Source: Oribacterium sp. WCC10 (GTDB lineage Bacteria > Bacillota > Clostridia > Lachnospirales > Lachnospiraceae). From it: 64,000 bases of DNA. The stretch lies in contig NZ_FOPH01000003.1 in the NCBI RefSeq assembly GCF_900113415.1, positions 1-64,000 on the forward strand. Direction: 5' to 3'. Under the pieces are notes generated by a model. That model was given only the letters and a program-made list of their open reading frames with translations, ran no database searches and was not told where the DNA came from. A program made the position numbers and the translations under genes. This document shows positions 2,682 to 58,240 of this stretch, in pieces. Each line of letters opens with the position of its first letter. Positions within the stretch are counted from its first letter, which is position 1.

Positions 2682-2976
2682 GGGTCAAAAGTACCAAATC
2701 ACGTGCTTGCACGTTGATTTGAGACTTTATGACCCGCCCGAACACGAATAACGTAGTCGTTTTGCACAGCAAAAGGACGTGAGTTATGAGTGTTCAGCAG
2801 CACAACTGCCTTCGATTTTTAATCGAAGGAGCCACGCGGCTTTGAGCGCTTCAAAGGAATCTGTAAGGATTCCTGCTCATATCTTTCGGGTATCGTTCTC
2901 GGAGATAATCCCTTTGCACACGAATGTGTGCGTTGGCGCTAATCAGTGAGTGGCAATACTTTTGACACTCACGTCT
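2682..2976 (+). repeat. R1 composite hairpin repeat, full copy a
   Basis: Four successive palindromic modules. Module 1, GGGTCA to TGACCC (2682-2735), has an inner CAAATCACGTGC stem. Module 2 runs from GAACAC to GTGTTC around TTTTGCACAGCAAAA. Module 3 has CTTCGATTTTTAATCGAAG, then CACGCGGCTTTGAGCG, then AGGAATCTGTAAGGATTCCT. Module 4 has GCACACGAATGTGTGC, then GTGAGTG to CACTCAC. This copy carries about 36 extra bases between modules 3 and 4. It starts on the base after the upstream stop codon. Confidence 0.85.
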
Positions 2977-3002
2977 TATTAAGAAATAGCTGTAGTGGAC
3001 TT

Positions 3003-3133
3003 TCTCTAAGTAAACACCGATTATATCCGTGTTTACTTAGAGCCTCAGACGTCTGGATCAGGATTTTCAAAGGAAGTTGATTCTTCGCATCGAAAATCCT
3101 GACAGGGAAACGGTTTAATTAATGTTTCCCTGA
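3003..3133 (+). repeat. Cluster of three hairpins ending in an R2 palindrome
   Basis: Three back-to-back inverted repeats: CTCTAAGTAAACAC / GTGTTTACTTAGAG (14 bp, perfect), GGATTTTC / GAAAATCC, and CAGGGAAAC / GTTTCCCTG (3104-3133). The last resembles the dispersed R2 palindrome. A GGATTTTC-type hairpin followed by an R2 copy recurs at ~53020-53117. The cluster lies just upstream of the aldo/keto reductase gene. Confidence 0.7.
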
Positions 3134-3206
3134 ATCTTTTATGTCAGATGGATTCGGCTGTAACGCTAATGATATAGTGGTTGGAAGGAAGGTCAGGAAG
3201 ATAATT

Positions 3207-4334
3207 ATGGATAGAGTGTTTCCGGAGATGAAAAAGCAACTGGGTTTTGGTATGATGCGTCTTCCTATGAAGGGAGACGTTGTTGATATAGAACAAGTTA
3301 AAAGGATGGTTGATTTGTTTCTCGAAAACGGGTTCAATTACTTTGACACTGCTCATGGATACATTAATGGCCTTTCAGAGTTGGCAGTGCGGGAGTGTCT
3401 GGTCAAAAGGCATAACAGAGATGAGTTTCTGCTGACAGATAAGCTTACGGGGCAATATTTTAAATCCAAGGCTGATATACGCCCGTTTTTTCAGAGTCAG
3501 CTTAAGGCATGCGGTGTTGAATATTTTGATTTTTATCTGATGCATTCTCAAAATGCGACGAACTTTAAACATTTTAAGGCATGCCATGCTTATGAAACTG
3601 CATTTGAACTGAAGAAAGAAGGTAAAGTGCGTCATGTAGGCATTTCCTTCCATGACAGAGCTCAGGTGCTTGATCAGATTCTGACAGAGTATCCTGATAT
3701 AGAAGTGGTTCAGATTCAGTTCAATTATCTTGACTATGATGATGAATCCGTGGAATCTAAAAAGGTTTATGATGTGGTCCGTAAGCATGGGAAGCCGCTG
3801 CTTGTTATGGAACCTGTTAAGGGCGGCAGTCTTGTGAATCTGCCTGAGAAGGCTGATAACGTTTTGCGCGAGCTTGATGGTGGCTCCAATGCTAGCTATG
3901 CCATCAGATTTGCAGCGAGCTTTGAGGGTATGGAGATGGTGTTGTCCGGTATGAGCAACATGGAGCAGATTGAGGATAACATCAGTTACATGAAGGATTT
4001 CAAGCCTTTATCGGATGTGGAGTTTGAGTCACTGTGGAAGGTGAGGGATATTTTCAAAAGTTTGAATTCCATTCCGTGTACAGGATGCAGATATTGTGTT
4101 GAGGAGAATCATTGTCCGAAGCATATTCTAATTCCTGATATGTTTACATGCATGAACAAAAAAATGATTTTCCACAGCTGGAATCAGGATTATTATTATG
4201 AAGATGTTTTGACTGTAGGAAACGGTAAAGCAAGTGATTGTATAAACTGCGGTGGTTGCGAGAGAGTTTGTCCACAGCATTTACCTATAAGAAAGCTGCT
4301 GAAGGATGTAGCTGAAGAATTCGAAAAAGATTAG
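3207..4334 (+). CDS. Aldo/keto reductase with C-terminal ferredoxin-type domain
   Basis: A 375-residue cytoplasmic oxidoreductase. The N-terminal ~290 residues form the NADPH-dependent AKR barrel: GFGMMRLPM at the start, YFDTAHGY carrying the active Asp/Tyr region, and FDFYLMHSQN. The C-terminal part has two cysteine clusters, CTGCRYCVEENHCPK and CINCGGCERVCP, able to bind [4Fe-4S] clusters. This matches the AKR-ferredoxin proteins common in Clostridia; the substrate is unknown. The start ATG 3207 was chosen because GGAAG lies six bases upstream; the frame stays open back to 3141, inside the hairpin cluster. It stands alone between repeat-filled gaps. Confidence 0.88.
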   Translation: MDRVFPEMKKQLGFGMMRLPMKGDVVDIEQVKRMVDLFLENGFNYFDTAHGYINGLSELAVRECLVKRHNRDEFLLTDKLTGQYFKSKADIRPFFQSQLKACGVEYFDFYLMHSQNATNFKHFKACHAYETAFELKKEGKVRHVGISFHDRAQVLDQILTEYPDIEVVQIQFNYLDYDDESVESKKVYDVVRKHGKPLLVMEPVKGGSLVNLPEKADNVLRELDGGSNASYAIRFAASFEGMEMVLSGMSNMEQIEDNISYMKDFKPLSDVEFESLWKVRDIFKSLNSIPCTGCRYCVEENHCPKHILIPDMFTCMNKKMIFHSWNQDYYYEDVLTVGNGKASDCINCGGCERVCPQHLPIRKLLKDVAEEFEKD

Positions 4335-4373
4335 CCGGAATGTATAATGACATATGTGTCATAAGTCTATCAC

Positions 4374-4700
4374 ACTAGTACAGCATAAATTAAGTATCTG
4401 ATACATCATATTTGTAATGATGGCTGTGCATTTAAGTGTTTGAACAATGAATTACGTGTCAGGTACTTATTATCTGATGTACTAGTACAGCATAAATTAA
4501 GTTTCTGATACATCCTTGCTGTAATGTCAGGCTAGTATTTCTGCTATAAAGTAGTGCTTAATGTGTCAGATACTTATTATTCGATATACTAGTACAGCGT
4601 TTATTATATTCCTGGAACATAAAAAACCATAGAAGACGCTTTGATACTTCATTTGAGCAGTGTGCTATGTGCCGGTTACTTATTATTCGATATACTATTG
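4374..4700 (+). repeat. Three tandem copies of a ~107-bp hairpin unit
   Basis: Units begin at 4374, 4481 and 4588 with ACTAGTACAGC; a stub ACTA starts at 4694. Spacing is 107, 107 and 106 bases. Within a unit the left arm AAGTATCTGATACAT faces the right arm TGTGTCAGGTACTTATT, so each unit can fold as a long hairpin, while the loop sequence between the arms differs from unit to unit. A partial right arm (GTGTCATAAG) precedes the first unit. The array fills most of the 4335-4720 gap, with no gene in it. Confidence 0.8.
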
Positions 4701-4720
4701 TTCACACAAGTGTGGGTTAT

Positions 4721-4941
4721 GGACTTAATGACCCGCCTGAACACGAATAACGTAGTCGTTTTGCACAGCAAAAGAATTCAAGTTTGAGTGTTCAGCAGCA
4801 CAACTGCCTTCGATTTTTAATCGAAGGAGCCACGCGGCTTTGAGCGCTTCAAAGGAATCTGTAAGGATTCCTGCTCTATGCACACGGATGTGTGCGTTGG
4901 TGCTAATCAGTGAGTGGCAAATACTTTTGACGCTAACGTCA
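4721..4941 (+). repeat. R1 repeat, copy b (module 1 truncated)
   Basis: This copy retains the right arm of module 1 (ACTTAATGACCC), then full modules 2, 3 and 4 in the same order as copies a and e. The terminal stem is mutated (GACGCTAACGTC instead of GACACTCACGTC). With copy a it brackets the aldo/keto reductase gene as direct repeats. It ends ~30 bases before the ribosome binding site of the GNAT gene. Confidence 0.85.
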
Positions 4942-4986
4942 TAATATGAAGATGCCATACCGTAATTTGGACAGGAGATTTTGACT

Positions 4987-5580
4987 ATGAAAAACGACAT
5001 AATTGTGAGAAAGGCCTCAATTGAAGATGCGGCTGAGCTTCTTGATATTTATGCGCCATATGTGGAGAAAACGGCGATAACTTTTGAATATACTGTTCCG
5101 GAACTGTCGGAGTTTGAGAGAAGGATAGGGAAGGTACTTGAAAGATATCCATACATCGTTGCTGAACAGGATGGTAAACCGGTGGGATATGCATATGTAA
5201 GTCCTTTTCATGAGCGTGCAGCGTATGACTGGTGTGTGGAGACGTCTATTTATATAGAAGAAAGTCAGAAAAGGTCAGGTATCGGAAAGAGATTGTACTA
5301 TGCCCTTGAGGATATTCTGAAAAAACAGGGAATACTGAATCTTAATGCATGTATAGCTTATCCAGATATGGAGGATGAGCATCTCACCAGGAATAGTGTA
5401 ATGTTTCATGAACATCTGGGATACAGTATGGTTGGTGAATTTCATAAATGCGGATATAAGTTTAAACGATGGTATAATATGGTATGGATGGAGAAACCTA
5501 TCGGAGAGCATTTGGAAGAGCAGCCACCGGTTCGTCGTTTTGATGAAGTGCTGGATGAGATAGATTTTGAAAAATACTGA
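4987..5580 (+). CDS. GNAT acetyltransferase, phosphinothricin acetyltransferase-like
   Basis: A 197-residue cytoplasmic N-acetyltransferase. The IRKA-type start strand (IIVRKASIEDAAELLDIY), the ITFEYTVPE segment and WCVETSIYIEE are typical of the Pat/Bar subgroup. The acetyl-CoA pyrophosphate loop is seen as KRSGIGKRLYYAL (Q/RxxGxG type), followed by LNACIAYPD and the GYSMVGEFHKCGYKF ending motif. The natural substrate is probably a small amine or amino acid, possibly methionine derivatives; this is family inference. ATG 4987 was chosen because AGGAG sits nine bases upstream; a TTG at 4981 is too close. A stem GGAAATGC / GCATTTCC begins right after the stop. Confidence 0.85.
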   Translation: MKNDIIVRKASIEDAAELLDIYAPYVEKTAITFEYTVPELSEFERRIGKVLERYPYIVAEQDGKPVGYAYVSPFHERAAYDWCVETSIYIEESQKRSGIGKRLYYALEDILKKQGILNLNACIAYPDMEDEHLTRNSVMFHEHLGYSMVGEFHKCGYKFKRWYNMVWMEKPIGEHLEEQPPVRRFDEVLDEIDFEKY

Positions 5581-5672
5581 GGAAATGCAAAAATAAGTAA
5601 ATACTGATTAACTCAGTGGCTGCACAAAAGCAGCGACAGACTTCATGATACGACTAAGGTAACAGCATTTCC
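5581..5672 (+). repeat. Long-range inverted repeat after the acetyltransferase gene
   Basis: GGAAATGC (5581-5588), starting immediately after TGA, can pair with GCATTTCC (5665-5672). Between them are ACTGATTAACTCAGT and CTGCACAAAAGCAG. The outer arm and the CTGATT core resemble the R2 palindrome with an insertion. It could end the acetyltransferase transcript or act as part of the leader of the next operon. Confidence 0.45.
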
Positions 5673-5713
5673 CTAAAGAAATCTTTAGATTACTTTAGGC
5701 GTCAATAAAGGTT

Positions 5714-5762
5714 AAGCCTCTATGATGTGAACATCGAAAATGTTCAGTCATGGAGGCTTTTG
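5714..5762 (+). promoter_or_regulatory. Hairpin that sequesters the RBS of the efflux operon
   Basis: AAGCCTC (5714-5720) pairs with GAGGCTT (5753-5759), extended inwards by ATGA/TCAT and AACAT/ATGTT around a CGAAA loop. The GGAGG ribosome binding site of the next gene (5752-5756) is inside the right arm, and four T residues follow. The structure could block translation, or act as a weak terminator, until opened. An upstream R2-like segment and the ATCTTTAGAT stretch could form an alternative fold. No known riboswitch class was recognised. Confidence 0.55.
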
Positions 5763-7475
5763 ATGTTAAATAAAATGAAATCCAAACCGGATGATATTAA
5801 TCTCAGGGATTCAATATCCGGTAGTAAAAACAATATAGGCAATAATCTGAAAAAAACAGGTGTTAAGGCATCAAAGGGATTTAAAGTAACGGGAAAAGTA
5901 AAAGTCATTGCGGCATTATGTTTTATGGCAGTAGTATCCGGTGGACTTTTTGTAAGGCATAGCATCAGTGCGAGAGCGGCGGAACAGGTAAATATCATGG
6001 ATGACACCATACCGGTTCAGCGAATTGATCTAAGCAAAAGCATTACTCTGAACGGAACTATCATGAGTGCGGAGAGTAAGAGCATTTCATCTACTGTAAG
6101 TGATGCTGAAGTTAAGTCTGTGATGGTCAAAGTCGGAGACAGGGTGAAAAAGGGAGATACCATTGCGATACTCAGCACTGACAACCTCGAAAAGCAGTTG
6201 GAGCTTGCAAAGGCGCAGCTCAATAATACTGTAGAAAAGAACAGAAATGATATAGATGAAGCAGGAAGAAATCTAGAAAATGCAAAAATGACAATGTCAA
6301 ATCAGGTGGCGCAGGCAACCCTGGACATTAATACAACTACTGAAAAACTTCATCAGAGTGAGACTGATGTTCTCAACGCACAGCAGGATATTCAGAAGTA
6401 CCTTCTGGAAGAAAATCAGCTTCAGACTGAGATCGACAGCTGTCAGGATATATATGATTCTGAACAGGCGGTTCTCAGAAACAAGCAGCGTAAGCTTACA
6501 AGGCTTCAAAGCGGTGAGGATGACGGTGATGATGATCACGGGGACAGCAGTACAACAAAGCTTCAGCTTGATATAGATCAGATCACCAATTCACAGAGTG
6601 ACAGACAATCTCATATAAGTGAGCTCAAGACAAAGTTGTCCGAGGCACAGTCCAAAAGGAAGGAAGCTGAGACTAAGCTGCAGAGTGCAAAGGATAACAT
6701 TGACAGCTACAATCAGACTCTTCAGAAATCACAGATGACACTGGCTGAAACCAATACAAGTAATCAGAAATCCATTCAGGACAGCGAGTCCGGAATCGCC
6801 ATGGCTAAGATGAATGCCGAATACAGTGAAAAGAATGCTCAGAACGATGTGGAGAAGGTGCAGAAGCAGATCAATGAGGCAGTGATAACGGCGCCTATAG
6901 ATGGTGTTGTGACCAATCTGAATGTTTCTGTCGGAGACATTTATAAGGGCGATGTTATCGCGGTTATACAGGATACATCAGGGTTTAAGGCGAGTGCTGA
7001 GGCCGATCAATATGATATCAGTGATATTGCGGCTGATATGAAGGCAACTGTCACCACAAAGACTACGGGAGACACTGAGATGAACGGAGAGGTAACATTT
7101 GTTTCACCGATTCCGGGTGTGACAAGTACAGGTAAGGATTCGAGTACTACCAATGCAAAGTCATCGAGCAGTAACTATCCTATAGAAGTCACTCTTCAGG
7201 ATCCAAGTGACAGGCTTCGTATCGGAATGTCTGCCAAGATAAAGATTCTGGAAAAAGAGGTGAAGGATGTACTGGCTGTTCCAGGCACCTACATTGATAC
7301 CGATGAGGAGGGAAACAGCATAGTCTACGTGATGGAAGATGACGGAAGCAGAAAGGCTGTGAAGGTAGAGACGGGACTAAAGACTGATTACTATATAGAG
7401 GTTAAATCCGATGAACTAAAGGAGGGGGATAATGTTGTTTCCTCTTCAACAGAGACTGAGATCAGTGTTCAATAA
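5763..7475 (+). CDS. MacA/HlyD-type membrane fusion protein of an ABC efflux system
   Basis: A 570-residue adaptor. It has a basic cytoplasmic N-terminus, one membrane segment at about residues 47-64 and then an extracytoplasmic region. The biotinyl-lipoyl-like half-motifs VKVGDRVKKGDTIAIL and ITAPIDGVVTNLNV flank a long coiled coil (about residues 145-370, rich in Gln, Lys, Asp and Glu). A beta-barrel/C-terminal domain follows (LRIGMSAKIKIL, DVLAVPGTYI). The family joins MacB-type permeases to export peptides or antibiotics; in a Gram-positive it may regulate the permease. ATG 5763 is preferred over GTG 5727 because GGAGG lies six bases upstream. It is first gene of an operon through 12672. 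Confidence 0.85.
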   Translation: MLNKMKSKPDDINLRDSISGSKNNIGNNLKKTGVKASKGFKVTGKVKVIAALCFMAVVSGGLFVRHSISARAAEQVNIMDDTIPVQRIDLSKSITLNGTIMSAESKSISSTVSDAEVKSVMVKVGDRVKKGDTIAILSTDNLEKQLELAKAQLNNTVEKNRNDIDEAGRNLENAKMTMSNQVAQATLDINTTTEKLHQSETDVLNAQQDIQKYLLEENQLQTEIDSCQDIYDSEQAVLRNKQRKLTRLQSGEDDGDDDHGDSSTTKLQLDIDQITNSQSDRQSHISELKTKLSEAQSKRKEAETKLQSAKDNIDSYNQTLQKSQMTLAETNTSNQKSIQDSESGIAMAKMNAEYSEKNAQNDVEKVQKQINEAVITAPIDGVVTNLNVSVGDIYKGDVIAVIQDTSGFKASAEADQYDISDIAADMKATVTTKTTGDTEMNGEVTFVSPIPGVTSTGKDSSTTNAKSSSSNYPIEVTLQDPSDRLRIGMSAKIKILEKEVKDVLAVPGTYIDTDEEGNSIVYVMEDDGSRKAVKVETGLKTDYYIEVKSDELKEGDNVVSSSTETEISVQ

Positions 7476-7607
7476 TATGATACTCACATCGTAATATCAG
7501 CGGTTACCATTTGTTTAAAATACAACAAGTTATGTACCCGCAGCGAAAATTGGTTTTACTTTAGTTCTTGATACCAGATATCTGATATGACAACAGGAGG
7601 AAGAAAA

Positions 7608-8333
7608 TTGGCTGAAACAATAATGCGGGCCAGGAACATTAGAAAAAGCTTTAATATAGGAACGGAAAACGAACTCGAGATTCTGCATGGAATCGATCTC
7701 GACATACATAAAGGAGAATTTGTTTCCATAGTAGGCACAAGTGGTTCAGGAAAATCGACATTTATGAATATACTGGGGCTTTTGGACAGACCTACAAGCG
7801 GTGATTATGAGCTTAATGGCATCGATGTTAGCAGTGCGGCGGACAATGAGCTCAGTCACATCAGAAATAAGGAAATCGGATTTGTTTTTCAGACTTACAA
7901 TCTGATTCCCAGAACCAGTGCATTGAAAAATGTTGAACTTCCGATGCTGTATGCAAGGGTACCGGAAAGAGAACGTAGGGAAAGAGCGGAAATGCTTCTT
8001 GAACTAGTGGGAATGAAGGAGAGGATGCATCACACTCCAGATGAACTATCGGGAGGACAGAAACAGCGAGTTGCAATTGCAAGGTCACTTGTCAATCATC
8101 CGTCAATGATACTTGCGGATGAGCCTACAGGAGCGCTTGATTCTAATACGGGACGTATCGTTATGGATCTGTTTCACAGGCTGCATGAGGAAAACGGGAT
8201 CACAATCGTTCTCATTACCCACTCTAATGAGCTGGCGGAAGAGACTGAAAGAGTCATCACTTTGAGAGACGGTAATATCATCGGAGAGACTGTCGGAAAA
8301 TTCTCTAAAAATCATGATCTAAGGAAACATTGA
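7608..8333 (+). CDS. ABC transporter ATP-binding protein, MacB/LolD type
   Basis: A 241-residue ATPase for the permease that follows. Walker A is GTSGSGKST, the Q-loop region is FVFQTYNLIPRT, the signature is LSGGQKQRVAIARS, Walker B is ILADEPTGALD and the switch is ITHS. These are the hallmarks of the FtsE/LolD/MacB group. I prefer TTG at 7608 as start because GGAGG at 7596-7600 is seven bases upstream; ATG 7587 lies before that site, and ATG 7647 would remove part of the first strand. The last codons overlap an R2 palindrome (8323-8349), so the final residues LRKH come from repeat sequence. Confidence 0.9.
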   Translation: MAETIMRARNIRKSFNIGTENELEILHGIDLDIHKGEFVSIVGTSGSGKSTFMNILGLLDRPTSGDYELNGIDVSSAADNELSHIRNKEIGFVFQTYNLIPRTSALKNVELPMLYARVPERERRERAEMLLELVGMKERMHHTPDELSGGQKQRVAIARSLVNHPSMILADEPTGALDSNTGRIVMDLFHRLHEENGITIVLITHSNELAEETERVITLRDGNIIGETVGKFSKNHDLRKH

Positions 8334-8349
8334 TTTAATCATAGTTTCC
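8323..8349 (+). repeat. R2 palindrome overlapping a stop codon
   Basis: GGAAACATTGATTTAATCATAGTTTCC: arms GGAAAC/GTTTCC with inner TGATT/AATCA. The stop TGA of the ABC ATPase gene is inside the palindrome. It separates the ATPase and permease genes of one operon, so it cannot be an absolute terminator. Confidence 0.75.
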
Positions 8350-8386
8350 ATAGTTATATGTGTGATAGAAAGTGTTATATAGATTT

Positions 8387-11874: not shown

Positions 11875-12672
11875 ATGAGATATATGGATGAATCAAAAAA
11901 GAATCTGAGACGTCATGTAGCAGTATTTGCCATGGCTGTTATAATCGGAACAGGAATGGTATCGCAGATTTCTGTATTTCCTGTCTATGCAGCTTCCACT
12001 GATGAGAAGGATTATGCATTTTCATCACTGCAGTGGGATACCGGCGATGATCTCATGATGGCTTACTGGGACAGATCAGAGGATGATCAGCATTATAAAC
12101 TTCAGCTTTACAGAGATTCTGTTGCGGTGGAGAATAAAGTCGGGCCTTCTGTTACGGTAACTAACAAGGATTATTATGATTTTACAAAGCTGTGTATAGA
12201 GAATGGTATAGGAAACTATATCTTTACTGTTACAGGCCTTAAGGAAAATGAAACTCAGGCTTCCGAAACAGTAAATATCGACTGGGCTATGTTCCACAAA
12301 ATCGAGGATAAGTATATAGAGGAGCATCCGAAGACCATATTCGGAACCTACAGTTATGACAGGATGAAGTTTATGAAGCTGAATGATCCGGCGGCGACTG
12401 CTACAGGTAAGCAGTTTGCAAATCAGATTTCAAATCCCGGACAGGCTGTAAATCAGAGTAATGCAGCAGTAAAGCAGACTGATGGATGGCTTAAGCTTAA
12501 GGATGCCGACTGGTATCATTTCACAGGCGGCGTCATGGATACAGGCTGGTACACGGATAATGCAACGGGATATAAGTATTATTTCAATCCGGACGGAACG
12601 ATGCATACCGGATATTTATATCAGGGGGGACAGATATACTTTTTTGACCAATCGGGTAAGCTTTGCAATTAA
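11875..12672 (+). CDS. Secreted protein with C-terminal cell-wall-binding repeats
   Basis: A 265-residue exported protein. The signal peptide is at about 1-36 (RRHVAVFAMAVIIGTGMVSQ, cleavage near VYAAS). The middle region resembles an Ig/fibronectin-like fold and is unidentified. The C-terminus holds choline-binding-type repeats (GWLKLKDADWYHFT, GWYTDNATGYKYYFNPDGTM, GQIYFFDQSGK). It is probably anchored non-covalently to the wall. ATG 11875 is chosen since GGAGGAG ends nine bases upstream; ATG 11869 is too close. The stop abuts an R1 copy and only about two to three wall-binding units remain, so the gene may have been shortened by the repeat. Confidence 0.8.
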   Translation: MRYMDESKKNLRRHVAVFAMAVIIGTGMVSQISVFPVYAASTDEKDYAFSSLQWDTGDDLMMAYWDRSEDDQHYKLQLYRDSVAVENKVGPSVTVTNKDYYDFTKLCIENGIGNYIFTVTGLKENETQASETVNIDWAMFHKIEDKYIEEHPKTIFGTYSYDRMKFMKLNDPAATATGKQFANQISNPGQAVNQSNAAVKQTDGWLKLKDADWYHFTGGVMDTGWYTDNATGYKYYFNPDGTMHTGYLYQGGQIYFFDQSGKLCN

Positions 12673-12820
12673 TCAGCAGCACAACTGCCTTCGATTTTTA
12701 ACCTAAGGAGACACGCGGCTTTGATCGCTTCAAAGGAATCTGTAAGGATTCCTGTTCTATGCACACGAGTGTGCGCTGGCGCTAAATCGGTGAGTAGCAA
12801 ATGTTTTTGACACTCACGTC
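12673..12820 (+). repeat. R1 repeat, copy c (modules 3-4 only)
   Basis: It starts at the base after the TAA stop of the wall-binding protein with TCAGCAGCACAACTGCC, then the degenerate stem CTTCGATTTTTAACCTAAG, AGGAATCTGTAAGGATTCCT, CACACGAGTGTG and GTGAGTAG / CACTCAC. Modules 1 and 2 are absent. It fills the gap before the PfkB gene together with ~98 further AT-rich bases. Confidence 0.8.
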
Positions 12821-19407: not shown

Positions 19408-19441
19408 GATGTGAGTGGCAAATATTTTTGATACTCACATC
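19408..19441 (+). repeat. R1 terminal hairpin alone (copy h)
   Basis: GATGTGAGTGGC ... GATACTCACATC: only the module 4 stem of R1. It sits inside the pilus operon between the traX-like and pilT genes, so it does not fully stop transcription there, or pilT has its own promoter. Confidence 0.7.
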
Positions 19442-25768: not shown

Positions 25769-25818
25769 GGGTCATAAAGTCTCAAATCATCGTGCAAGCA
25801 CGTGATTTGGTACTTTTG
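25769..25818 (-). repeat. R1 module 1 alone, reverse orientation (copy i)
   Basis: GGGTCATAAAGTCTCAAATC, a short GTGCAAGCAC tip, then GTGATTTGGTACTTTTGGT: the reverse complement of module 1 of copies a and e, lacking the last arm bases. It begins 24 bases after the pilin stop and forms a long stem, so it may end the pilin transcript. Confidence 0.8.
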
Positions 25819-28232: not shown

Positions 28233-28375
28233 GTGGGAGAGCCGTGAGCCTTGTGGCAGATTCCAACGGAATCTGTCATGCAGCTTCAGCCCTCGCGAAG
28301 CGAACTAAATGGGCTGACGTTTCCAGTAGCGCAAAGGGCGAAACAATTCTATATCGACTTTTGACACCCACATCA
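28233..28375 (+). repeat. Composite hairpin element related to R1
   Basis: The outer arms GTGGG (28233-28237) and CCCAC (28367-28371) enclose GGCAGATTCC / GGAATCTG, CAGC ... GCTG and GTTTC ... GAAAC stems. The right end, CGACTTTTGACACCCACATCAT, parallels the R1 terminus TACTTTTGACACTCACGTCAT. I take it as a distant R1 variant. It lies in the gap between the two biosynthetic genes. Confidence 0.55.
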
Positions 28376-39429: not shown

Positions 39430-40671
39430 ATGTATAGTGATATAAGTTTAGAAAAAGCCATTGAGCTTATAGAGGATAATGTTTCTGCCATAACGGAGAC
39501 AAAGCTTGTCAACACAGAGGCTGCGTTTTCTTCATTGGCAGCAGAAGATGTAAGCATTGGTTTCGATCAACCGCCTTTTCCACGTTCACCGCTGGACGGG
39601 TTTGCTGTAAGAAGCATTGATACAAAAGGGGCTTCTCATGAGACTCCGAAATGCTTCAGGATCATAGATACAGTTTATGCCGGTGGCTGCAGCAGCTGTA
39701 CGGTGGATGAGATGGAGGCCGTTCGTATCATGACAGGTGCTCCTATCCCCGATGGTGCTGACTGCATCATTAGGCAGGAGGATATAATCGGATGGAAGGA
39801 TGAAGAAAGATTCACTCCTTTTAAGGTCGGAGATACTGTAAAGATACCTTATGAATTTCACAAGTGGGACAATTACTGTTTTAAGGGAGAAGATGTAAAA
39901 AAGGATACGGTGGTACTTAAGGATCGTACAAGAATAGGTTATATAGAAGAGGGTATCCTTGCTTCTTCCGGAATAACTCATGTTAATGTTTACAGAAAGC
40001 CCAGAGTTTCAGTTCTTGTAACCGGAAGCGAACTTGTGGAGCCGGGAGAGAAACTTGCACCCGGAAAGATTTATGATTCAAATCTCTTCATGATGAAGTA
40101 TCGTCTCAGGGAGCTTAACTGCGATGTCGTGATGGCTGAGCAGGTTCCGGATGAAGTCCGGGCAGGAGCTTCACTTTTCAGAAAGGCCGCGGAAATATCA
40201 GATCTTGTCATAACAAGCGGAGGTGTGTCTGTTGGTGAAAAGGATATCATTCACCTTATATTGCCTGAGATCGGTGCGGACAAGATATTCTGGGGAATCA
40301 GGATGAAACCGGGGTCTCCCGCCATTTTTTCGAAATCCGGTGATGTTCCGATGATACATCTTTCTGGCAATCCTTTTGCGGCACTTGCTACATTTGAACT
40401 TCTTGTGAGACCTGCACTTGTAAAGCTTACAGGAGATGAGGGTTATAAAGTCAGGGAGGTCGAAGCAGTGCTTGACGAGGATTTCATGAAGCACAGAGGA
40501 CGACGCTTCATAAGAGGCTTCTATAATGAAGGACATGTGAGATTTCCGGCTCCCGTGGCACAGGCAAGCGGTATTCTTTTCTCGATGCAGGGCTGCAATT
40601 GTCTCATAGAACTTCCCCCTTCCGATGTTCCGTATATGAAGGGAACAAAGGTGAAGGTGCATTTGATTTGA
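39430..40671 (+). CDS. moeA: Molybdopterin molybdenumtransferase MoeA
   Basis: A 413-residue enzyme inserting Mo (or W) into adenylylated molybdopterin. Motifs: PPFPRSPLDGFAVRS, MTGAPIPDGADCIIRQED, VLVTGSELVEPGE, then the active-site region SGGVSVGEKD and LSGNPFAAL. Length and domain order are those of MoeA. In this locus it probably supplies tungsten to the AOR-type enzyme. The RBS is weak (GGAAT), 30 bases after the previous gene's stop. Confidence 0.93.
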   Translation: MYSDISLEKAIELIEDNVSAITETKLVNTEAAFSSLAAEDVSIGFDQPPFPRSPLDGFAVRSIDTKGASHETPKCFRIIDTVYAGGCSSCTVDEMEAVRIMTGAPIPDGADCIIRQEDIIGWKDEERFTPFKVGDTVKIPYEFHKWDNYCFKGEDVKKDTVVLKDRTRIGYIEEGILASSGITHVNVYRKPRVSVLVTGSELVEPGEKLAPGKIYDSNLFMMKYRLRELNCDVVMAEQVPDEVRAGASLFRKAAEISDLVITSGGVSVGEKDIIHLILPEIGADKIFWGIRMKPGSPAIFSKSGDVPMIHLSGNPFAALATFELLVRPALVKLTGDEGYKVREVEAVLDEDFMKHRGRRFIRGFYNEGHVRFPAPVAQASGILFSMQGCNCLIELPPSDVPYMKGTKVKVHLI

Positions 40672-40684
40672 TGATACAGCTCAT

Positions 40685-40746
40685 TGCACACGAATGTGTG
40701 CGTTGGCGCTAATCAGTGAGTGGCAATACTTTTGACACTCACGTCA
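40685..40746 (+). repeat. R1 module 4 alone (copy d)
   Basis: GCACACGAATGTGTGC, GTTGGCGCTAATCAGTGAG, TTTTGACACTCACGTC: identical in order to the end of copy a. It begins 14 bases after the moeA stop. With copy e it brackets the queT gene as direct repeats. Confidence 0.85.
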
Positions 40747-40841
40747 TTTGATAAAAAACATGGTGATAATGCTTTTTTCTTGAATAGATTGTGTAAAAGT
40801 GGTATTTTATAGCACGTTGTCTGTTATAGACATAAAGTTAT

Positions 40842-40892: not shown

Positions 40893-41396
40893 ATGAATAA
40901 CAAGAAAGTAGTATTTATCACGCAGGCTGCGCTGATAGCTGCATTGTATGTGACACTTACTTTTGTGTTTGCAGCTATCTCATTCGGCGAGGTACAGCTT
41001 CGTATAGCCGAGGCTCTCACCATACTTCCGATGTTTACACCGGCTGCCATTCCGGGACTTTTTGTGGGGTGCATCATCGGTAATGCCATGGGAGGAGCCG
41101 TTCTTCCTGACATTATCTGCGGAAGTCTTGCAACACTTATCGGTGCCTATGTAACATGGCTCCTTCGCAACCGTTCACCTTTTATCGGCTGCCTTCCACC
41201 TATCATTGCCAATATGATAGTAGTTCCTTTCGTACTTCGTTATGCATATGCGGTAACACTTCCGTTATGGTTCATGGCACTTACCGTTGGTTTAGGTGAG
41301 GTACTCGGATGTGGTCTTCTCGGATGCATTTTATACTTTGCTCTCAACAAGCATGGAGAAGTAATATTCAAAGCTGATATGTTTGAAAGAATCTGA
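40893..41396 (+). CDS. queT: QueT-type ECF S component for queuosine precursor
   Basis: A 167-residue membrane protein with about five to six helices. It shows the QueT family features: VFAAISFGEVQLRIAEALTI, IIGNAMGGAVLPDIICGSLAT and LPPIIANMIVVPFVLRYAYA. It would bring in preQ1 or queuine with the shared ECF module. The preQ1-like leader directly ahead supports both calls. RBS AGGAG overlaps the riboswitch tail. No other queuosine gene is nearby. Confidence 0.92.
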   Translation: MNNKKVVFITQAALIAALYVTLTFVFAAISFGEVQLRIAEALTILPMFTPAAIPGLFVGCIIGNAMGGAVLPDIICGSLATLIGAYVTWLLRNRSPFIGCLPPIIANMIVVPFVLRYAYAVTLPLWFMALTVGLGEVLGCGLLGCILYFALNKHGEVIFKADMFERI

Positions 41397-41404
41397 TGAT
41401 ACAA

Positions 41405-41665
41405 GGGTCAAAAGTACCAAATCACGTGCTTGCACGATGATTTGAGACTTTATGACCCGCCCGAACACGAATAACGTAGTCGTTTTGCATAGCAAAAGGA
41501 CCCAAGTTTGAGTGTTCAGCAGCACAACTGCCTTCGATTTTTAATCGAAGGAGCCACGCGGCTTTGAGCGCTTCAAAGGAATCTGTAAGGATTCCTGCTC
41601 TATGCACACGAATGTGTGCGTTGGCGCTAATCAGTGAGTGGCAAATACTTTTGACACTCACGTCA
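41405..41665 (+). repeat. R1 composite repeat, full copy e
   Basis: All four modules without insertion, so it is the best reference copy: GGGTCA to TGACCC, GAACAC to GTGTTC, CTTCGATTTTTAATCGAAG, AGGAATCTGTAAGGATTCCT, GCACACGAATGTGTGC, and GTGAGTG to CACTCAC. It starts eight bases after the queT stop. On the minus strand it carries an open frame of ~80 codons, which I do not accept as a gene. Confidence 0.88.
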
Positions 41666-41902
41666 TCTGATGAAACTTAAATTGCACCGTTAAATGCCGG
41701 TTACATAACAGATTGATAAAAGATATAGCCTGTTTTTGTTAATGATAGTACAGATATCATAGAGTGAAATCTATGACATCTGTACTATTTTATTGTTCAC
41801 AAAAGCTATTATATTACCCCTTTTATGTCGATACTTAGGTTAGGTGGAGTTATGGAAAGGATTCCGTTACTTGTTAATTAGCTAAGGAATAGTTGGTACA
41901 GT
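41666..41902 (+). other. Leader of the EAL gene with a strong hairpin
   Basis: ATAGTACAGATATCATAGA / TCTATGACATCTGTACTAT (41746-41791) form a ~19-bp stem followed by TTTATTGTT, terminator-like. It lies ~110 bases before the EAL-protein start, so it could attenuate it. No gene here. Confidence 0.5.
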
Positions 41903-45703: not shown

Positions 45704-45710
45704 GACATAA

Positions 45711-45790
45711 GTGCCATAAGTTTATTTCTACAGGAGATTTTGAGATGCTGTCAGAAATAGACTTATGGCACTCACATCATAAGATGTGAG
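45711..45790. repeat. Long imperfect palindrome plus short hairpin in a convergent gap
   Basis: GTGCCATAAGTTTATTTCT (45711-45729) faces AGAAATAGACTTATGGCAC (45753-45771), one mismatch. Directly after comes CTCACATC / GATGTGAG (45771-45790), like the R1 end. It lies between two convergent genes, so it may act as a two-way transcript end. Confidence 0.65.
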
Positions 45791-52801: not shown

Positions 52802-52834
52802 TGATCATTATAGTGTATAGATTTTGAGGGGGAA

Positions 52835-52888
52835 CCACTCGCGCTGTGTCAGGCTTCTTTTTAAGCGGATACGGGCTGAGTGGTTTTT
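52835..52888 (+). terminator. Terminator after the hypothetical gene
   Basis: AACCACTC / GAGTGGTT flank a long structured loop, followed by TTTTTG. Confidence 0.7.
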
Positions 52889-52996
52889 TGTTGCATAAAG
52901 AATAATACATGAGATAATTAAAACAGATGAATTGGTCGATATGTTTATAGAATGCTTTAAGTCCGGTTTTAGTCAGGAGCTATTCTGTGAACCTTA

Positions 52997-53117
52997 TAGA
53001 AATGCTGATTATGGTGTTTCCATTGCCGGATTTTCGATGCCAGGCATTAATTACCTTTTGAAATCCGTGCTCAAACGCCGGAGGCGCTGAGGAAATGTTG
53101 ATTATATCGGTATTTCC
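52997..53117 (+). repeat. Two R2-like palindromes around a GGATTTT hairpin
   Basis: AGAAATGCTGATTATGGTGTTTC (~52998-53020), CGGATTTTCGA ... TTGAAATCCG, a short CGCCGGAGGCG, then GGAAATGTTGATTATATCGG TATTTCC (53091-53117). The same order (GGATTTTC hairpin, then R2) occurs at 3058-3133. The rest of the 52889-53162 gap holds no gene. Confidence 0.6.
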
Positions 53118-53162
53118 TTAGACTACAACAGGTTGATGATTCCAATATGTGAGGAATGGATA

Positions 53163-54434
53163 ATGTTAATTGCTAAAATCGTGTCTGAATTCTTTGCGGC
53201 ACTGGTTGTTCTGGTGCTATTTGCGGGAGTTTACACCACGTATGAGAAAAGCCAAAAGAAAAACTGCCTGATGATCATACTTATGGCAAATAATCTCATG
53301 TTGTTGTTGGATGTGGTTACATGGATACTTGAATACAACAACATGGTGGATTTTCTGTATGTGATATTCACGATTAGTTCCGTTTCGCTTTTATATACAT
53401 CTATCGCAGCATTCAACTATTACATATATTTTTACCTGGCAGAGAAATGTAGCATTTCAGTATGGTTTGGGAGAATCGGAATTCCGGTCTGCCTGTTTGG
53501 AATACTTATGTGGCTGACGTCTCCCATTCATGGTCAGGTGTTCTACATTGAAGACGGTGTATACATACATGGGCCATTGTATCTTCATTCCCAGATAGTG
53601 GGTGCAAGTATTCTCGTATATGATCTTATACTGGCCGTTATCTATTTCAGAAAGCTTGAACTATCTGACTTTATAGGAATTATTTCATTCATGATATTTC
53701 CCATGACTGCAACAGTTATCACCATGAAGTATCCCATGTTCGGTTCGCTCCTTATATATCTTTCGGTAACACTTGGTATCCTTATGGTGTATACATTTAT
53801 GCATGTTCAGCAGAGTATCGAGCTTAAGAGAAAGGAAAATGCATTGACCCAGGAGAGACTCTCCATCATGATGAGTCAGATACAGCCCCACTTTCTTTAC
53901 AATTCGCTGAATTCCATATACTACTTGTGTACAAAAGATCCTGAGATGGCACAGAAGGCCATAGGTGAGTTTTCCGATTATCTTCGTGGCAATCTGGATT
54001 CGTTGAGAACCAAGGAACCTGTCCCCTTTGAGAAGGAATTGGATCATATACAGAACTATCTTGCTCTTGAAAAGATGAGGTTTGATGATGACCTCACCAT
54101 AGTATATGACATTCAGGTAAAGAATTTTAAGCTTCCTGCACTCAGTGTACAGCCTATAGTTGAGAATGCTGTCAAGTATGGTGTCTGTAAATCGCCGGAT
54201 GGAGGAACGGTCACTATATCAACACGGGAGTATGATGACAGGTATGAGATCATCGTGGATGATGACGGAGTCGGCGGATATACTGAGGCCAAGAGAGAGT
54301 ATGACGGACGTTCACATATCGGTATCCAGAATGTACGTGAAAGACTGAAACTGCAGTGCCAGGGAACTCTTGATATAGTAAGTGTGCCGGGAGAGGGAAC
54401 AACTGTAACCATTACTATCCCTAAGGAAAGATAA
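53163..54434 (+). CDS. LytS/YesM-type sensor histidine kinase with multi-helix sensor
   Basis: A 423-residue kinase with about six to seven N-terminal membrane helices (1-215), a linker, then the His_kinase domain with His242 in IQPHFLYNSLNSIYYL. The ATPase domain has PALSVQPIVENAVKYG, DDDGVGG and HIGIQNVRERL. Polytopic sensor plus HPK7/8-type core resembles peptide- or wall-sensing kinases. ATG 53163 has GAGGA seven bases upstream; earlier ATG/TTG codons at 53133-53136 have no RBS. Partner regulator is probably at 56049. The stop overlaps the start of an R1 stem. Confidence 0.87.
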   Translation: MLIAKIVSEFFAALVVLVLFAGVYTTYEKSQKKNCLMIILMANNLMLLLDVVTWILEYNNMVDFLYVIFTISSVSLLYTSIAAFNYYIYFYLAEKCSISVWFGRIGIPVCLFGILMWLTSPIHGQVFYIEDGVYIHGPLYLHSQIVGASILVYDLILAVIYFRKLELSDFIGIISFMIFPMTATVITMKYPMFGSLLIYLSVTLGILMVYTFMHVQQSIELKRKENALTQERLSIMMSQIQPHFLYNSLNSIYYLCTKDPEMAQKAIGEFSDYLRGNLDSLRTKEPVPFEKELDHIQNYLALEKMRFDDDLTIVYDIQVKNFKLPALSVQPIVENAVKYGVCKSPDGGTVTISTREYDDRYEIIVDDDGVGGYTEAKREYDGRSHIGIQNVRERLKLQCQGTLDIVSVPGEGTTVTITIPKER

Positions 54435-54465
54435 GTGAGTGGCATTTTTTTTGACACTCACTTCA
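54433..54465 (+). repeat. R1 terminal hairpin alone (copy j)
   Basis: AAGTGAGTGGC ... GACACTCACTT: a 9-bp stem with T-rich loop. It starts inside the TAA stop of the kinase gene. It may end or tune the kinase transcript. Confidence 0.75.
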
Positions 54466-54682
54466 TTAAAATGACTGTTATAGTTTGCATTTACAGCTTA
54501 TACGGTGATGATATACACCATTTAACGGATGATATTTTAATGTCAAACTAAATATAGTAATTAATTGTTATTTCTGACGTTTTTCTGACGAAAAATATAG
54601 TAACGGTAGAGGATTAACATATCCTCATGTGCATATACTCAGAATTATCTGGTTTTATGTTTAGGGAATGAGGGGAGTTATT

Positions 54683-56038
54683 TTGGAACAATTCAGTGAT
54701 CGGAAAAAGTATTATAAGAAGAAAAAAAGAACAACGACAGTAGACATTATCAAGACTGTGTCTAAAAGGATGGAAGCTGATATCAAGGCATCTTATATAG
54801 GAGATACGAAAGCTCTTTTTAAGATGCTTTCTGATGTTTTGAGGTATCCTTTTTTGTATATGCTCTGCGTTTTCTTTGCATATCAGGCGGGTCTTCTGCT
54901 TAATATGGGTATGACTAAAGAGGACTTCTATGGAAGTTATGGAAATGTGTATTATCTCATAGGTAATGTTCTGTTTCTTTTTATTTACCATATCATTCTG
55001 ACGGGAAATGGCAGAACTTTATGGTCGGAATTCAGTTTGTTCAGGGATTTCAAGATTCTTGTTCACATGACGGAAAAGGGCTTTAAGGCCAGATTTAAGA
55101 GACTGATGAAGAGGTTCAGAGATATACGACACAGGAAGATGACAGCCAGAAAGGCACTTCTTCAGTATGTTCTGCATTTTCTTACAGGTGTTTCCTGCGG
55201 ACTTCTGATTCTTGGGGTTTTCCTTTTGCTGAAGGACAGAGATGCCTACATTAGACTTTTTGAGGACTCCGGTTTCATATGGAGAGGCGGTAATGAATAT
55301 CTGGGCATTTTGGTGTTTTCTCTTATAGTGCCCTTTATAGAGGAACTTATCTATCGTGTGCATAACATGAATGCACTGAGAAAGGATGTAACCATTATAA
55401 CCGCAGCTGTCATGGTGACTGTGGTTTATGCTTTCTTTAATATCGGAAGTCTGTTTACGATAATGATCATGCCGGTAGTACTTTTGATGAACTGTGTATA
55501 TGACAGGACACAGAGCGCCAGAAACATGTCCTACTATATGGCCGGACATGCTGCAAGAAAGGCTTTTGTTTCATCGGGGAAGGGAGACAATATCATTTCA
55601 ATCAGGGACAGAATGAAGAAAGGCAGAAAGACAAGATATATCAACAAGGAAAAGACTAAGGCCATGAGTCTAAATGAATCCGTGGATGTTAGTGTGGGAG
55701 AAGACATGGATGTAAAGACTCAAATGGCAGAGGCAGTCAATGACTTCAATGGAAGGCAGGATGTAGAAAAGAATCACAATATCACAGATTTCAGTATGGA
55801 AAGATCAATTGGGGCGAAGTCAGATATTACCTACAGTTTTTTGATGAATACAGGTTTACATCTGACTCTCGGATCCGGATGGTACATATTGAGTCACTTA
55901 AATGGTGATGTCAGCCGCATTCTTTCAAAACAGATACTGGTATTTCAGGTGGTTGTAAGTGTTCTGGTTCTTTACATCTTTGCAAGAAACAGTCTGAGTC
56001 TCGGCTTCTTCAAGCCACGTGACAATGAATGGGGATAA
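54683..56038 (+). CDS. CPBP-like polytopic membrane protein
   Basis: A 451-residue protein. Basic N-terminus, about seven to nine membrane helices in two groups (75-190, 215-270, and two near the C-terminus at ~390-440), with a basic cytoplasmic loop (~285-375). VPFIEELIYRVHNMNAL matches motif 1 (EExxxR) of CPBP/Abi intramembrane proteases. The expected later His motif is degenerate (FFNIG), so activity is doubtful. It is placed between a sensor kinase and a regulator. TTG 54683 follows AGGGGAG by five bases and is preferred; ATG 54668 is too near any RBS. Confidence 0.7.
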   Translation: MEQFSDRKKYYKKKKRTTTVDIIKTVSKRMEADIKASYIGDTKALFKMLSDVLRYPFLYMLCVFFAYQAGLLLNMGMTKEDFYGSYGNVYYLIGNVLFLFIYHIILTGNGRTLWSEFSLFRDFKILVHMTEKGFKARFKRLMKRFRDIRHRKMTARKALLQYVLHFLTGVSCGLLILGVFLLLKDRDAYIRLFEDSGFIWRGGNEYLGILVFSLIVPFIEELIYRVHNMNALRKDVTIITAAVMVTVVYAFFNIGSLFTIMIMPVVLLMNCVYDRTQSARNMSYYMAGHAARKAFVSSGKGDNIISIRDRMKKGRKTRYINKEKTKAMSLNESVDVSVGEDMDVKTQMAEAVNDFNGRQDVEKNHNITDFSMERSIGAKSDITYSFLMNTGLHLTLGSGWYILSHLNGDVSRILSKQILVFQVVVSVLVLYIFARNSLSLGFFKPRDNEWG

Positions 56039-56048
56039 GGAGTGAATT

Positions 56049-56834
56049 ATGCAGGTACTTGCTATTGATGATGAGAAGATAGCATTGGAGGGTCTTACTG
56101 ACGTTATCAGGAAGGCTATGCCTGAAGCAGAGATATTTTCCTACAGAAATGCTCTCAAGGCTATTGAGGATCTGGAGGGCAAACATATTGACATTGCTTT
56201 TCTGGATATTGAGATGAGGGACATAAACGGTCTGCAGTTTGCAGATCATCTGAAGGAACGTTTTCCGAGAATCAATGTCATCTTTACAACAGGATACAGT
56301 GAATATGTGGGAGAGGCTATGAATCTTCATGCCAGCGGCTACATCATGAAGCCGGTGACTCTCGACAAGCTTCGAAAGGAGATAGATGATCTCCGGTATC
56401 CGATAGAAGATAATCAGAAGAAAGATGTTCTGCGTGTTCAGACATTCGGCAATTTTGAAGTGCTGAAGAACAATCAGGTGCTTCGTTTTCAGTACAGTAA
56501 AACAAAGGAACTTTTTGCGTATCTTGTTGACCGATGCGGTGCCCTTACCAGTAACGGAGAGATACTCGGGGTTCTATGGGAGGACGATGCCAATCCTGAA
56601 AAGAAGGCCTCATATCTTCAGAACCTGCGTGCGGATATGATCTCGACACTTACTGAAGCCGGTTTCCCGGATGTGATAGTCAGACAGAGGGGAACCATAG
56701 CTATAGTTCCTGACAAGATGGAGTGCGATCTCTATGAATGGAAAAAGGACAGAGAAAAAGCAAAAGTCCGTTATACCGGTGAATATATGAATCAGTTCAG
56801 CTGGGCAGAATACAGTAAGGGTGCATTGGAATAG
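56049..56834 (+). CDS. Response regulator with SARP-like winged helix
   Basis: A 261-residue regulator. The receiver domain (1-115) has acidic DDEK, phosphoacceptor Asp53 in FLDIEMRDINGL, and Lys in GYIMKPVT. The C-terminal part (135-255) begins RVQTFGNFEVLKNNQVLRF, the start of the SARP/OmpR-like helix-turn-helix found in clostridial regulators, with KTKELFAYLVDRCGA and PEKKASYLQNLRADM. It begins ten bases after the CPBP gene and likely pairs with the LytS-type kinase. RBS AAGGAG. Confidence 0.87.
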   Translation: MQVLAIDDEKIALEGLTDVIRKAMPEAEIFSYRNALKAIEDLEGKHIDIAFLDIEMRDINGLQFADHLKERFPRINVIFTTGYSEYVGEAMNLHASGYIMKPVTLDKLRKEIDDLRYPIEDNQKKDVLRVQTFGNFEVLKNNQVLRFQYSKTKELFAYLVDRCGALTSNGEILGVLWEDDANPEKKASYLQNLRADMISTLTEAGFPDVIVRQRGTIAIVPDKMECDLYEWKKDREKAKVRYTGEYMNQFSWAEYSKGALE

Positions 56835-56901
56835 AGTTTGTTTTTCGATGCTTTTTGGTTTTCATCACAAGTATGGGGATTCATGGAGTTTTTCAAATAT
56901 A

Positions 56902-56937
56902 AAACGGGGCAGTCTCGATGACTGCTCCGTTATTTTT
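56902..56937 (+). terminator. Terminator of the kinase-regulator operon
   Basis: AACGGGGCAGTC / GACTGCTCCGTT (one G-T pair), then ATTTTTG. Confidence 0.85.
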
Positions 56938-56989
56938 GTGTGGCAGATATCAGACCATCAAAATACATAATAGGAGGTGAGGCATAGAA

Positions 56990-57124
56990 TTGGATAAAAT
57001 CACCAAATTGTATGACAAAATATTATCAATTTGCCGAATTCAACAAATGAAGGAAAGAAATTTGGTAGAACAAAGCGTATTTAAAAGAATACAAAAGTCT
57101 GTTATCATGTACAAGATTGTATGA
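56990..57124 (+). CDS. Doubtful 44-residue ORF
   Basis: A TTG-started ORF preceded by AGGAGGTGAGG, reading LDKITKLYDKILSICRIQQM and on to QKSVIMYKIV. The RBS is excellent, but the ORF spans two operator-like TTGTATGACAA sites, so it may be the remains of, or the first exon-like stub of, a GntR-type regulator, or chance. No homologue is recognised. Confidence 0.3.
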   Translation: MDKITKLYDKILSICRIQQMKERNLVEQSVFKRIQKSVIMYKIV

Positions 57125-57127
57125 CAA
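57008..57127 (+). promoter_or_regulatory. Two TTGTATGACAA operator-like sites
   Basis: Identical 11-base sequences with TTGT/ACAA symmetry at 57008-57018 and 57117-57127, 109 bases apart, upstream of the SDR gene. TTGT-N3-ACAA dyads are typical of GntR-family (UxuR/ExuR-like) operators, which would fit a hexuronate gene. Assignment is inference. Confidence 0.5.
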
Positions 57128-57197
57128 TTCGTGGACATATGTATGTATTTACTATTTTTGCATACGTATCCATGTGGCGATGCCGATAATGCTCAGC

Positions 57198-57261
57198 ACG
57201 CACACGAATGTGTGCGTTGGCGCTAACCAGTGAGTGGCAAATACTTTTACCACTCACATCA
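57198..57261 (+). repeat. R1 module 4 alone (copy f)
   Basis: GCACACGAATGTGTGC, GTTGGCGCTAACCAGTGAG, then CCACTCACATC. It ends 25 bases before the SDR start, i.e. just upstream of its ribosome binding site; with copy g it flanks the SDR gene in inverted orientation. Confidence 0.85.
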
Positions 57262-57285
57262 TAGTATATGTAGAGGAGAATAATT

Positions 57286-58128
57286 ATGGAGTTACCATTC
57301 AAGATTGATCTTTCGGGTGAAGTTGCAGTAGTTACAGGTGGAACAGGTGTTATCGGCGGTATGTATGCACGTACACTTGCTGCTTGTGGAGCAAAGGTTG
57401 CTGTTCTTGGACGTAATAAGGAGAACGGGGCACAGGTACTTCAGGACATAGAGGCAGACGGTGGAGAAGCCATGGCTGTTGCCGGTAATGTTCTTGATAA
57501 GGATAGTCTTCTTGCTGCAAGACAGGAGATACTTGATAAGTGGGGACATATCAATATTCTTGTGAACTGTGCAGGAGGTGCCATCAAGGCGGCACAGGTT
57601 CCACAGGATCATTTCCATGAGAGGGAGGAAGGAACAGATACTCTGTTCACCATCGATCTTGAGAATGTTCATAAGGAGCTTGACTTAAATATTTACGGAA
57701 CCATGCTTCCTACTCAGGTTTTCGGAGAGGTTATGGTTGGTCAGGACAATGCAAACATCATAAACATTTCTTCTATGTCCGCATATCATCCGCTCACCAG
57801 AATCCCGGGATATTCAGCAGGAAAAGCCGGAGTTGCAAGTTTTACAGAATGGTGTGCCATCTACTTTGCAAAGAGCGGCATCAGAGTCAATGCTGTAGCA
57901 CCGGGTTTCTTCCAGACAACACAGAATCATGCACTTCATTTCAATGAGGACGGCACTCCAAAGCCTCGTGCCCGGCATATCATCGATGCAACACCTATGG
58001 AGAAGTATGGAGATCCTTCAGATCTCATCGGAGCACTGCTGTACCTTGTAAGCCCTAAGGGTTCAAACTTTGTAACAGGTGTCGTTCTTCCTGTAGACGG
58101 CGCATTCCATGTATATCAGGGTGTCTGA
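57286..58128 (+). CDS. Short-chain dehydrogenase, fructuronate/mannonate oxidoreductase-like
   Basis: A 280-residue Rossmann enzyme. Cofactor motif VVTGGTGVIGGMYARTLA (TGxxxGxG variant), VNCAGG, catalytic Ser in NISSMSAY, Tyr and Lys in YSAGKAG (YxxxK), and APGFFQTTQNHAL. The insertion HFHEREEGTDTLF is typical of the D-mannonate oxidoreductase-like SDRs that convert fructuronate to mannonate in Firmicutes. Operator-like sites upstream fit sugar-acid control. RBS AGAGGAG. It is not clustered with uxuA or kdg genes here. Confidence 0.85.
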   Translation: MELPFKIDLSGEVAVVTGGTGVIGGMYARTLAACGAKVAVLGRNKENGAQVLQDIEADGGEAMAVAGNVLDKDSLLAARQEILDKWGHINILVNCAGGAIKAAQVPQDHFHEREEGTDTLFTIDLENVHKELDLNIYGTMLPTQVFGEVMVGQDNANIINISSMSAYHPLTRIPGYSAGKAGVASFTEWCAIYFAKSGIRVNAVAPGFFQTTQNHALHFNEDGTPKPRARHIIDATPMEKYGDPSDLIGALLYLVSPKGSNFVTGVVLPVDGAFHVYQGV

Positions 58129-58136
58129 TTTACTAA

Positions 58137-58163
58137 GGAAACACTGATTTATTCAGCTTTTCC
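58137..58163 (+). repeat. R2 palindrome after the SDR gene
   Basis: GGAAACACTGATTTATTCAG, then CTTTTCC: the left arm and core match R2, the right arm has one change. It begins nine bases after the stop codon. Confidence 0.7.
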
Positions 58164-58177
58164 CTGAATATAATTAT

Positions 58178-58240
58178 GGCGTGAGTGTCAAAAGTGTTTG
58201 CTATTCACTGATTAGCGCCAGAGTACACATTTGTGTGCAA
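58178..58240 (-). repeat. R1 module 4 alone, reverse orientation (copy g)
   Basis: The reverse complement reads TGTACTCTGGCGCTAATCAG, then TGAATAGC and GACACTCACGCC. It is opposed to copy f across the SDR gene. Confidence 0.8.

Follow-up and report, generated by a model that had tools for sequence, protein, structure and literature searches.

Repeat R1 of Oribacterium sp. WCC10 is probably a miniature inverted-repeat transposable element family related to Rfam family RF01699

R1 elements and their ends

The DNA analysed here (the window) is a 64,000-bp stretch of the Oribacterium sp. WCC10 genome (contig NZ_FOPH01000003.1, positions 1 to 64,000), in which copies of a hairpin-rich repeat, R1, are confirmed to be present far more often than chance expects. 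A repeat finder aligned the copies at 2772, 4770 and 41494 with 92–94% identity over 107–229 bp, and the copy at 12651 with 82% identity. An earlier note on this DNA had described a dispersed modular repeat beginning at 2682 and 41405; the copies are real, but the elements start 7 bases ahead of these positions, at 2675 and 41398.

The complete element at 41398..41664 (+ strand, 267 bp) lies between identical 7-bp target duplications, ATCTGAT, at 41391-41397 and 41665-41671. In its minimum-energy fold, a left-end hairpin (hairpin A, 41405..41458, +; GGGTC...GACCC with an inner CGTGCTTGCACG hairpin), conserved in relatives as helix 3, is followed by hairpin B (41463..41517, +), which contains a tandem G.A internal loop, CGAA/TGAG. 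Alignment and fold together place extra hairpin modules at 41519..41600 (+), which are not in the 195-bp form of the element, and a GCACACGAATGTGTGC hairpin plus the right-end hairpin (GTGAGTG...CACTCAC), which includes the right inverted repeat, at 41602..41664 (+). Alignment and end search identified a second complete element at 2675..2975 (+), which measures 301 bp and carries an additional 34-nt module.

Complete copies are bounded at both ends by the inverted repeat GAYGTRAGKGTCAAAAG; they start on the left with GATGYAAGGGTCAAAAG or a similar sequence, and the right terminus is the reverse complement of GACGTGAGTGTCAAAAG. Ends lying 36–420 bp apart were treated as candidate pairs, giving 41 pairs in the window's genome. 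An exact 7-bp repeat flanks 25 of these, compared with agreement in 2.3% of 1640 mispaired flanks. The duplication consensus is ATNNNAT (A29 T28 NNN A28 T28) over 30 elements from the window's genome and relatives, a set picked for an exact repeat in which one composite is counted beside its inner element. Complete R1 occurs in discrete sizes (~195, 267 and 301 bp), and shorter forms range down to 34 bp. The distance between paired ends (34–340 bp) leaves no room for a 530-aa transposase, and R1 has no transposase gene of its own. Four features of miniature inverted-repeat transposable elements (MITEs) are found together: terminal inverted repeats, a duplication of constant length (not at 2675), many copies, and no transposase of their own.

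Copy number and genomic placement

In the window's assembly (3.64 Mb, 53 contigs), 53 BLAST matches to window:2674-2980 were obtained. Allowing up to 2 mismatches, 194 right-end sites were counted across the whole genome against 3 in a reversed control; end-repeat sites numbered 162 against 0 in the control. Across 17 genomes of the genus, end sites range from 0 to 174 per genome, the highest number being that of the window's genome, and the end repeat is present in 11 of them. No match to the 41398 copy was found in phages or plasmids.

Of the 38 duplication-bearing elements at all loci, 35 lie outside open reading frames (ORFs) of at least 100 aa, while 69% of the window's 534 ATNNNAT sites fall within such ORFs. 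Between co-directional genes, 13 elements are in sense and 11 in antisense orientation (p = 0.84), with strands hand-assigned from end types for 34 of the 38 rows (L008 twice, L106 and L273 were dropped). No promoter signal was seen beside the 30 duplication-bearing elements (7.33 vs 7.32; 7.37 vs 7.30). In all 13 relatives compared, paired R1 ends were absent 3' of the gene that precedes the 41398 copy; one of the 13 has a single end-like site. The earlier note had left open whether R1 is a mobile element or an RNA processing/termination unit. The inverted ends, exact duplications, variable copy number and related transposons point to a non-autonomous mobile element, whereas a processing or termination unit gains no support from the near-even orientation between co-directional genes. 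The note had also remarked on starts just after stop codons. These are real, but they are explained by the end repeat GATGTAA, which supplies the TAA at 2679-2681, and by the AT-rich target, which contains or adjoins the stops at 12672, 40671 and 41396.

R1 and the RF01699 RNA family

A match to RF01699 (Clostridiales-1 RNA; Rfam type sRNA, small RNA; gathering cut-off 48 bits) spans the R1 left end and first two hairpins. The window's genome holds 41 RF01699 matches, 25 above the cut-off, and two window copies pass: 2675 (match at 2674-2825, 57.5 bits) and 41398 (41397-41547, 48.3 bits). For the copy at 4722, no RF01699 match appeared at E values of 1 or below. The earlier note knew no name for R1 and had proposed an Rfam match as a test against its idea; the match disposes of the namelessness, since the left half of R1 matches RF01699, and mobility stands. 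In its tabulation of motifs, Weinberg et al. 2010 (PMC2864571) enters this one as a probable RNA and non-cis-regulator. A review from 2024 on MITEs in prokaryotes (PMC10969869) has none of six terms looked up in it, IS1182, Clostridi and Rfam among them, and among the matches listed for MITE literature, judged by title, no paper is about R1.

RF01699 is found in 14 of the 17 Oribacterium genomes (0 to 65 matches each) and, in a survey that scored up to 7 places per genome, in 215 of the 397 genomes sampled from the bacterial family, representing 186 of 334 genera. The 30 top-scoring loci from other genera, one per genome, included 27 with full flanks. In 23 of these 27 best copies a second end, GATGTTGGGGTCAAAAG or near, lies 17–33 nt past the Rfam model. 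An exact 7–8 bp duplication is present in 12 of the 23 two-ended copies; of mispaired flanks, 5 of 506 (1%) reach 6 or more. Because of these matching second ends and duplications, the Rfam model looks, for these best copies, like a MITE clipped of its right end.

Not every RF01699 member fits the mobile-element pattern. The copies L213-L251 from two other Oribacterium genomes, G003 and G010, fall into two classes, a TGATTCC type and a TAAGTCC type. The 20 G003 copies of the TGATTCC type stand behind a promoter-like sequence (8.2 vs 7.1, 0/300 shuffles as high; the first scoring window had given 6.85 vs 6.37, and the higher figures followed a 2-base shift). The 17 G010 copies give no promoter signal (6.18 vs 6.19), and by eye the TAAGTCC-type copies of that genome stand behind terminator-like T-runs. 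Locus L244 (G010:C1:498496-499328) consists of tandem RF01699 units of ~170 bp each and stops just 5' of an apparent ribosome-binding site and start codon. An RF01699-like copy at L028 (G000:C41:17090-17207) has ends nearer to those of a resident IS1182-like element (described below) than to those of R1, which hints that the RF01699 core can pair with different ends.

Fold and covariation

For the 41398 copy the folding energy is -109.3 kcal/mol (z -8.8), and for its complement it is -105.3 kcal/mol (z -7.7). Among 23 complete elements from other genera, changes on both sides occur in 26 of 45 pairs, a level reached in 0 of 500 shuffles, and 98% of cells pair compared with 32–41% in slid controls. 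One of five covariation measures, further pair types, was not above shuffles.

A fold maintained purely as RNA should strongly favour G.U over A.C, and a DNA palindrome should not favour it at all. The observed balance falls between these expectations. In the 23 elements, G.U to A.C is 30 to 5 (14 to 5 by pairs, p = 0.06). Over 93 rows we counted 3680 Watson-Crick, 116 G.U, 74 A.C and 161 other cells; after clustering at 90, 80, 70 and 60% identity, the G.U:A.C counts are 89:65, 68:46, 52:26 and 24:15 (p = 0.06, 0.05, 0.004 and 0.20, respectively). The tandem G.A loop is present in 90 of the 93 rows by a loose count (GA on both sides), and its strands are swapped in the 4 R1 rows, two of which are window copies. 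That the loop is kept while its strands are swapped argues for a selected shape over palindrome repair alone. We tentatively suggest that RF01699 may be a family-wide MITE lineage with a selected folded core, in which a single-stranded RNA or DNA form would be recognised by a transposase or a host protein; we regard this extension as possible, at somewhat less than an even chance.

Candidate transposases

On a contig end of genome G011, an R1-type end is followed ~130 bp inward by the C-terminal 129 residues of an IS1182-like transposase. Compared with the 397 family genomes, this fragment matched in 15 genomes at E up to 1e-15. Eighteen loci were fetched, and proper examination covered the + strand matches. 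R1-like ends were observed in five. One of these is a 565-bp remnant; the others are intact elements, and an exact duplication flanks three of the four (ATATCAT, ATATAAT or the 8-bp ATCAATAT). All four partner proteins contain DUF772 and DDE_Tnp_1_6 domains, as does the protein of the insertion sequence in L178, which reaches 146 bits against the NCBIfam IS1182 model (NF033551). That insertion sequence was rejected as the R1 partner, since it has its own ends and is located at a MITE junction.

The window's genome also has a resident multi-copy IS1182-like element, represented by 11 fragments at contig ends, whose ends are GAGTCGCCCGACAAATGG. All 11 flanks read ATNNNAT, and each of the four right flanks equals some left flank exactly. 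R1 and this element obey one target rule. In 5 of the 11 flanks (L255, L256, L257, L259 and L261, at contig ends) it abuts R1-type ends directly, as though the ATNNNAT duplications of R1 served as its targets.

Other candidates were set aside. The four transposases with a DDE_Tnp_1 domain (PF01609) in the window's genome showed no R1 ends at plausible places within 4 mismatches, and own ends were found for only one of them. ORFs beside R1 ends were assessed by eye on their initial residues: no transposase was seen in the first set, and one at L147 was recognised later. Nor did a convincing autonomous element emerge from the long end pairs of G006 and G007, where ORFs were again judged by eye.

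Interpretation and alternative explanations

We consider it highly likely that R1 is a MITE family, probably moved by an IS1182-like transposase, and the local form of a lineage whose core is RF01699. The basis for this is directly observed in the ends, duplications, copy number, distribution, conserved fold and matching ends of related transposons. A transposase encoded by another element, most likely an IS1182-like one with DUF772 and DDE domains, would act on both inverted ends, each of which may fold into a hairpin. R1 would then insert at AT-rich ATNNNAT sites and come to lie between 7-bp direct repeats, and inserted copies would shrink by deletion to give module-wise partial copies. We infer both the transposase that moves R1 in the window's genome and the deletion origin of the short forms.

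Several observations weigh against this explanation. Mobility is read from sequence comparison. Of the candidate end pairs, 16 of 41 are without an exact duplication, including the 2675 window copy, whose flanks (ATATTAT and TTATTAA) agree at 5 of 7 positions. An exact empty site for the 41398 copy was not recovered, with downstream sequence available from 9 of the 13 relatives, and the assembly of the window's genome contains no autonomous element whose ends are exactly those of R1. The partner proteins have NF033551 as their best model, yet they score 120–149 bits, below its curated cut-off of 270, and for this reason we call them IS1182-like only. Finally, a duplication of at least 6 at the model end was found in 0 of the 37 G003 and G010 copies of RF01699, and a loose test with no control places one within the following 55 positions in 5 of the 37.

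If R1 were instead a stand-alone sRNA gene or mRNA-leader element, duplicated by ordinary means and retained for a useful RNA, then the Rfam typing of RF01699 as sRNA, the both-side changes in 26 of 45 pairs, the G.A loop in 90 of 93 rows and the promoter-like sequence ahead of the 20 G003 copies would be readily understood. Inverted ends and target duplications would not, nor would an unbiased orientation (13 vs 11), the missing promoter signal at both the 30 duplication-bearing elements and the 17 G010 copies, or a G.U to A.C ratio of only 116 to 74 over 93 rows; we judge this account improbable. Still less credible is an origin as REP/REPIN- or BOX-type arrays, spreading through single-strand (Y1) chemistry or some other route. 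R1 shares with such arrays its dispersed modular hairpins, one at each end, but REP/REPIN- and BOX-type systems are not known to leave a target duplication, and exact 7-bp duplications together with terminal inverted repeats largely disfavour this origin.

A closer alternative, itself a variant of the preferred explanation, is that the resident IS1182-like element moves R1 through cross-recognition, with no lost or unassembled partner. The shared 7-bp ATNNNAT target and the 5 of 11 flanks that abut R1-type ends among its contig-end fragments are consistent with this. However, its end sequences are unlike those of R1 at many positions, and related IS1182-like elements elsewhere have ends far closer to R1's, so we regard the resident element as a rather unlikely mover, with a chance well short of even.

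Relation to known systems

Like other prokaryotic MITEs, R1 is short, has inverted ends and a target duplication, is present in many copies and would be moved in trans; it differs in its strongly covarying folded core and its membership in an Rfam family. IS1182-like elements share with it similar inverted ends, AT-rich duplications of 7–8 bp and the ATNNNAT target, but carry a transposase, which R1 does not. RUP, BOX and ERIC are likewise short dispersed hairpin repeats, and BOX is modular. RUP duplicates TA and has an IS630 partner, in contrast to the 7 bp of R1, and the REPIN/RAYT system differs in that it is not known to make a duplication. Compared with RF01699, R1 has the same left end and first two hairpins, whereas the model lacks the extra hairpin modules and right end of R1, and the two strands of the G.A loop have changed sides in the 4 R1 rows that were inspected. 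RF01699 is an sRNA by Rfam type and looks mobile in this analysis.

The novelty lies in the link to a curated RNA family: R1 is a member, and across many genera the best copies of the family look as if they come from the same mobile lineage. At least part of what the RF01699 entry covers appears to be mobile DNA common to many related bacteria. If many members are mobile DNA, the annotation of RF01699 loci would change, and the case cautions that compensatory changes alone are no proof of a functional RNA. The natural copies, ends, target rule and candidate transposases provide material for asking if the folding of DNA or RNA affects how MITEs spread. If the core is indeed selected, a structured nucleic acid would participate in cut-and-paste spread of MITEs, and other orphan bacterial RNA families may likewise be mobile elements.

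Partial and composite copies

The loss along module borders that the earlier note had reported is real, and it probably reflects deletion within inserted copies. Several 5'-truncated copies begin near GTTCAGCAGCAC, the base of hairpin B. No duplications were seen at these GTTCAGCAGCAC starts, and the copies are read as deletions. One such copy, found by the repeat finder at 12673..12820 (+), lacks the left end and begins at the hairpin B base. The repeat finder also placed an R1 copy at 4722..4940 (+), which had been called near-full at 4721-4941 and lacks its left end. Two regions described as single modules turned out differently. The copy at 40685, taken as module 4 only, belongs to a 73-bp deletion form at 40673..40745 (+) that has an exact duplication, ATTTGAT, at 40666-40672 and 40746-40752. 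The supposed lone end stem at 19408..19441 (+, 34 bp) is a back-to-back pair of ends without a duplication.

Immediately 5' of the 4722 copy, three to four tandem 107-bp repeats occupy 4349-4700, and their start is end-like (GACATATGTGTCATAAG). The region 4349-4940 might be a single 592-bp composite, without an exact duplication. A 461-bp composite at L008 1236-1696 (G000:C36) has two right-type ends, with ATATAAT at both edges and beside an inner left end.

Right-hand remnants lie at 57198..57260 (+, repeat finder) and, in reverse orientation, at 58178..58240 (-). A right-end stem remnant was located by the repeat finder at 54431..54464 (+), and a left-end (hairpin A) remnant in reverse orientation was read from the sequence at 25769..25818 (-). 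Further end-like pieces of the window are found at ~28358-28374 and 45704-45778.

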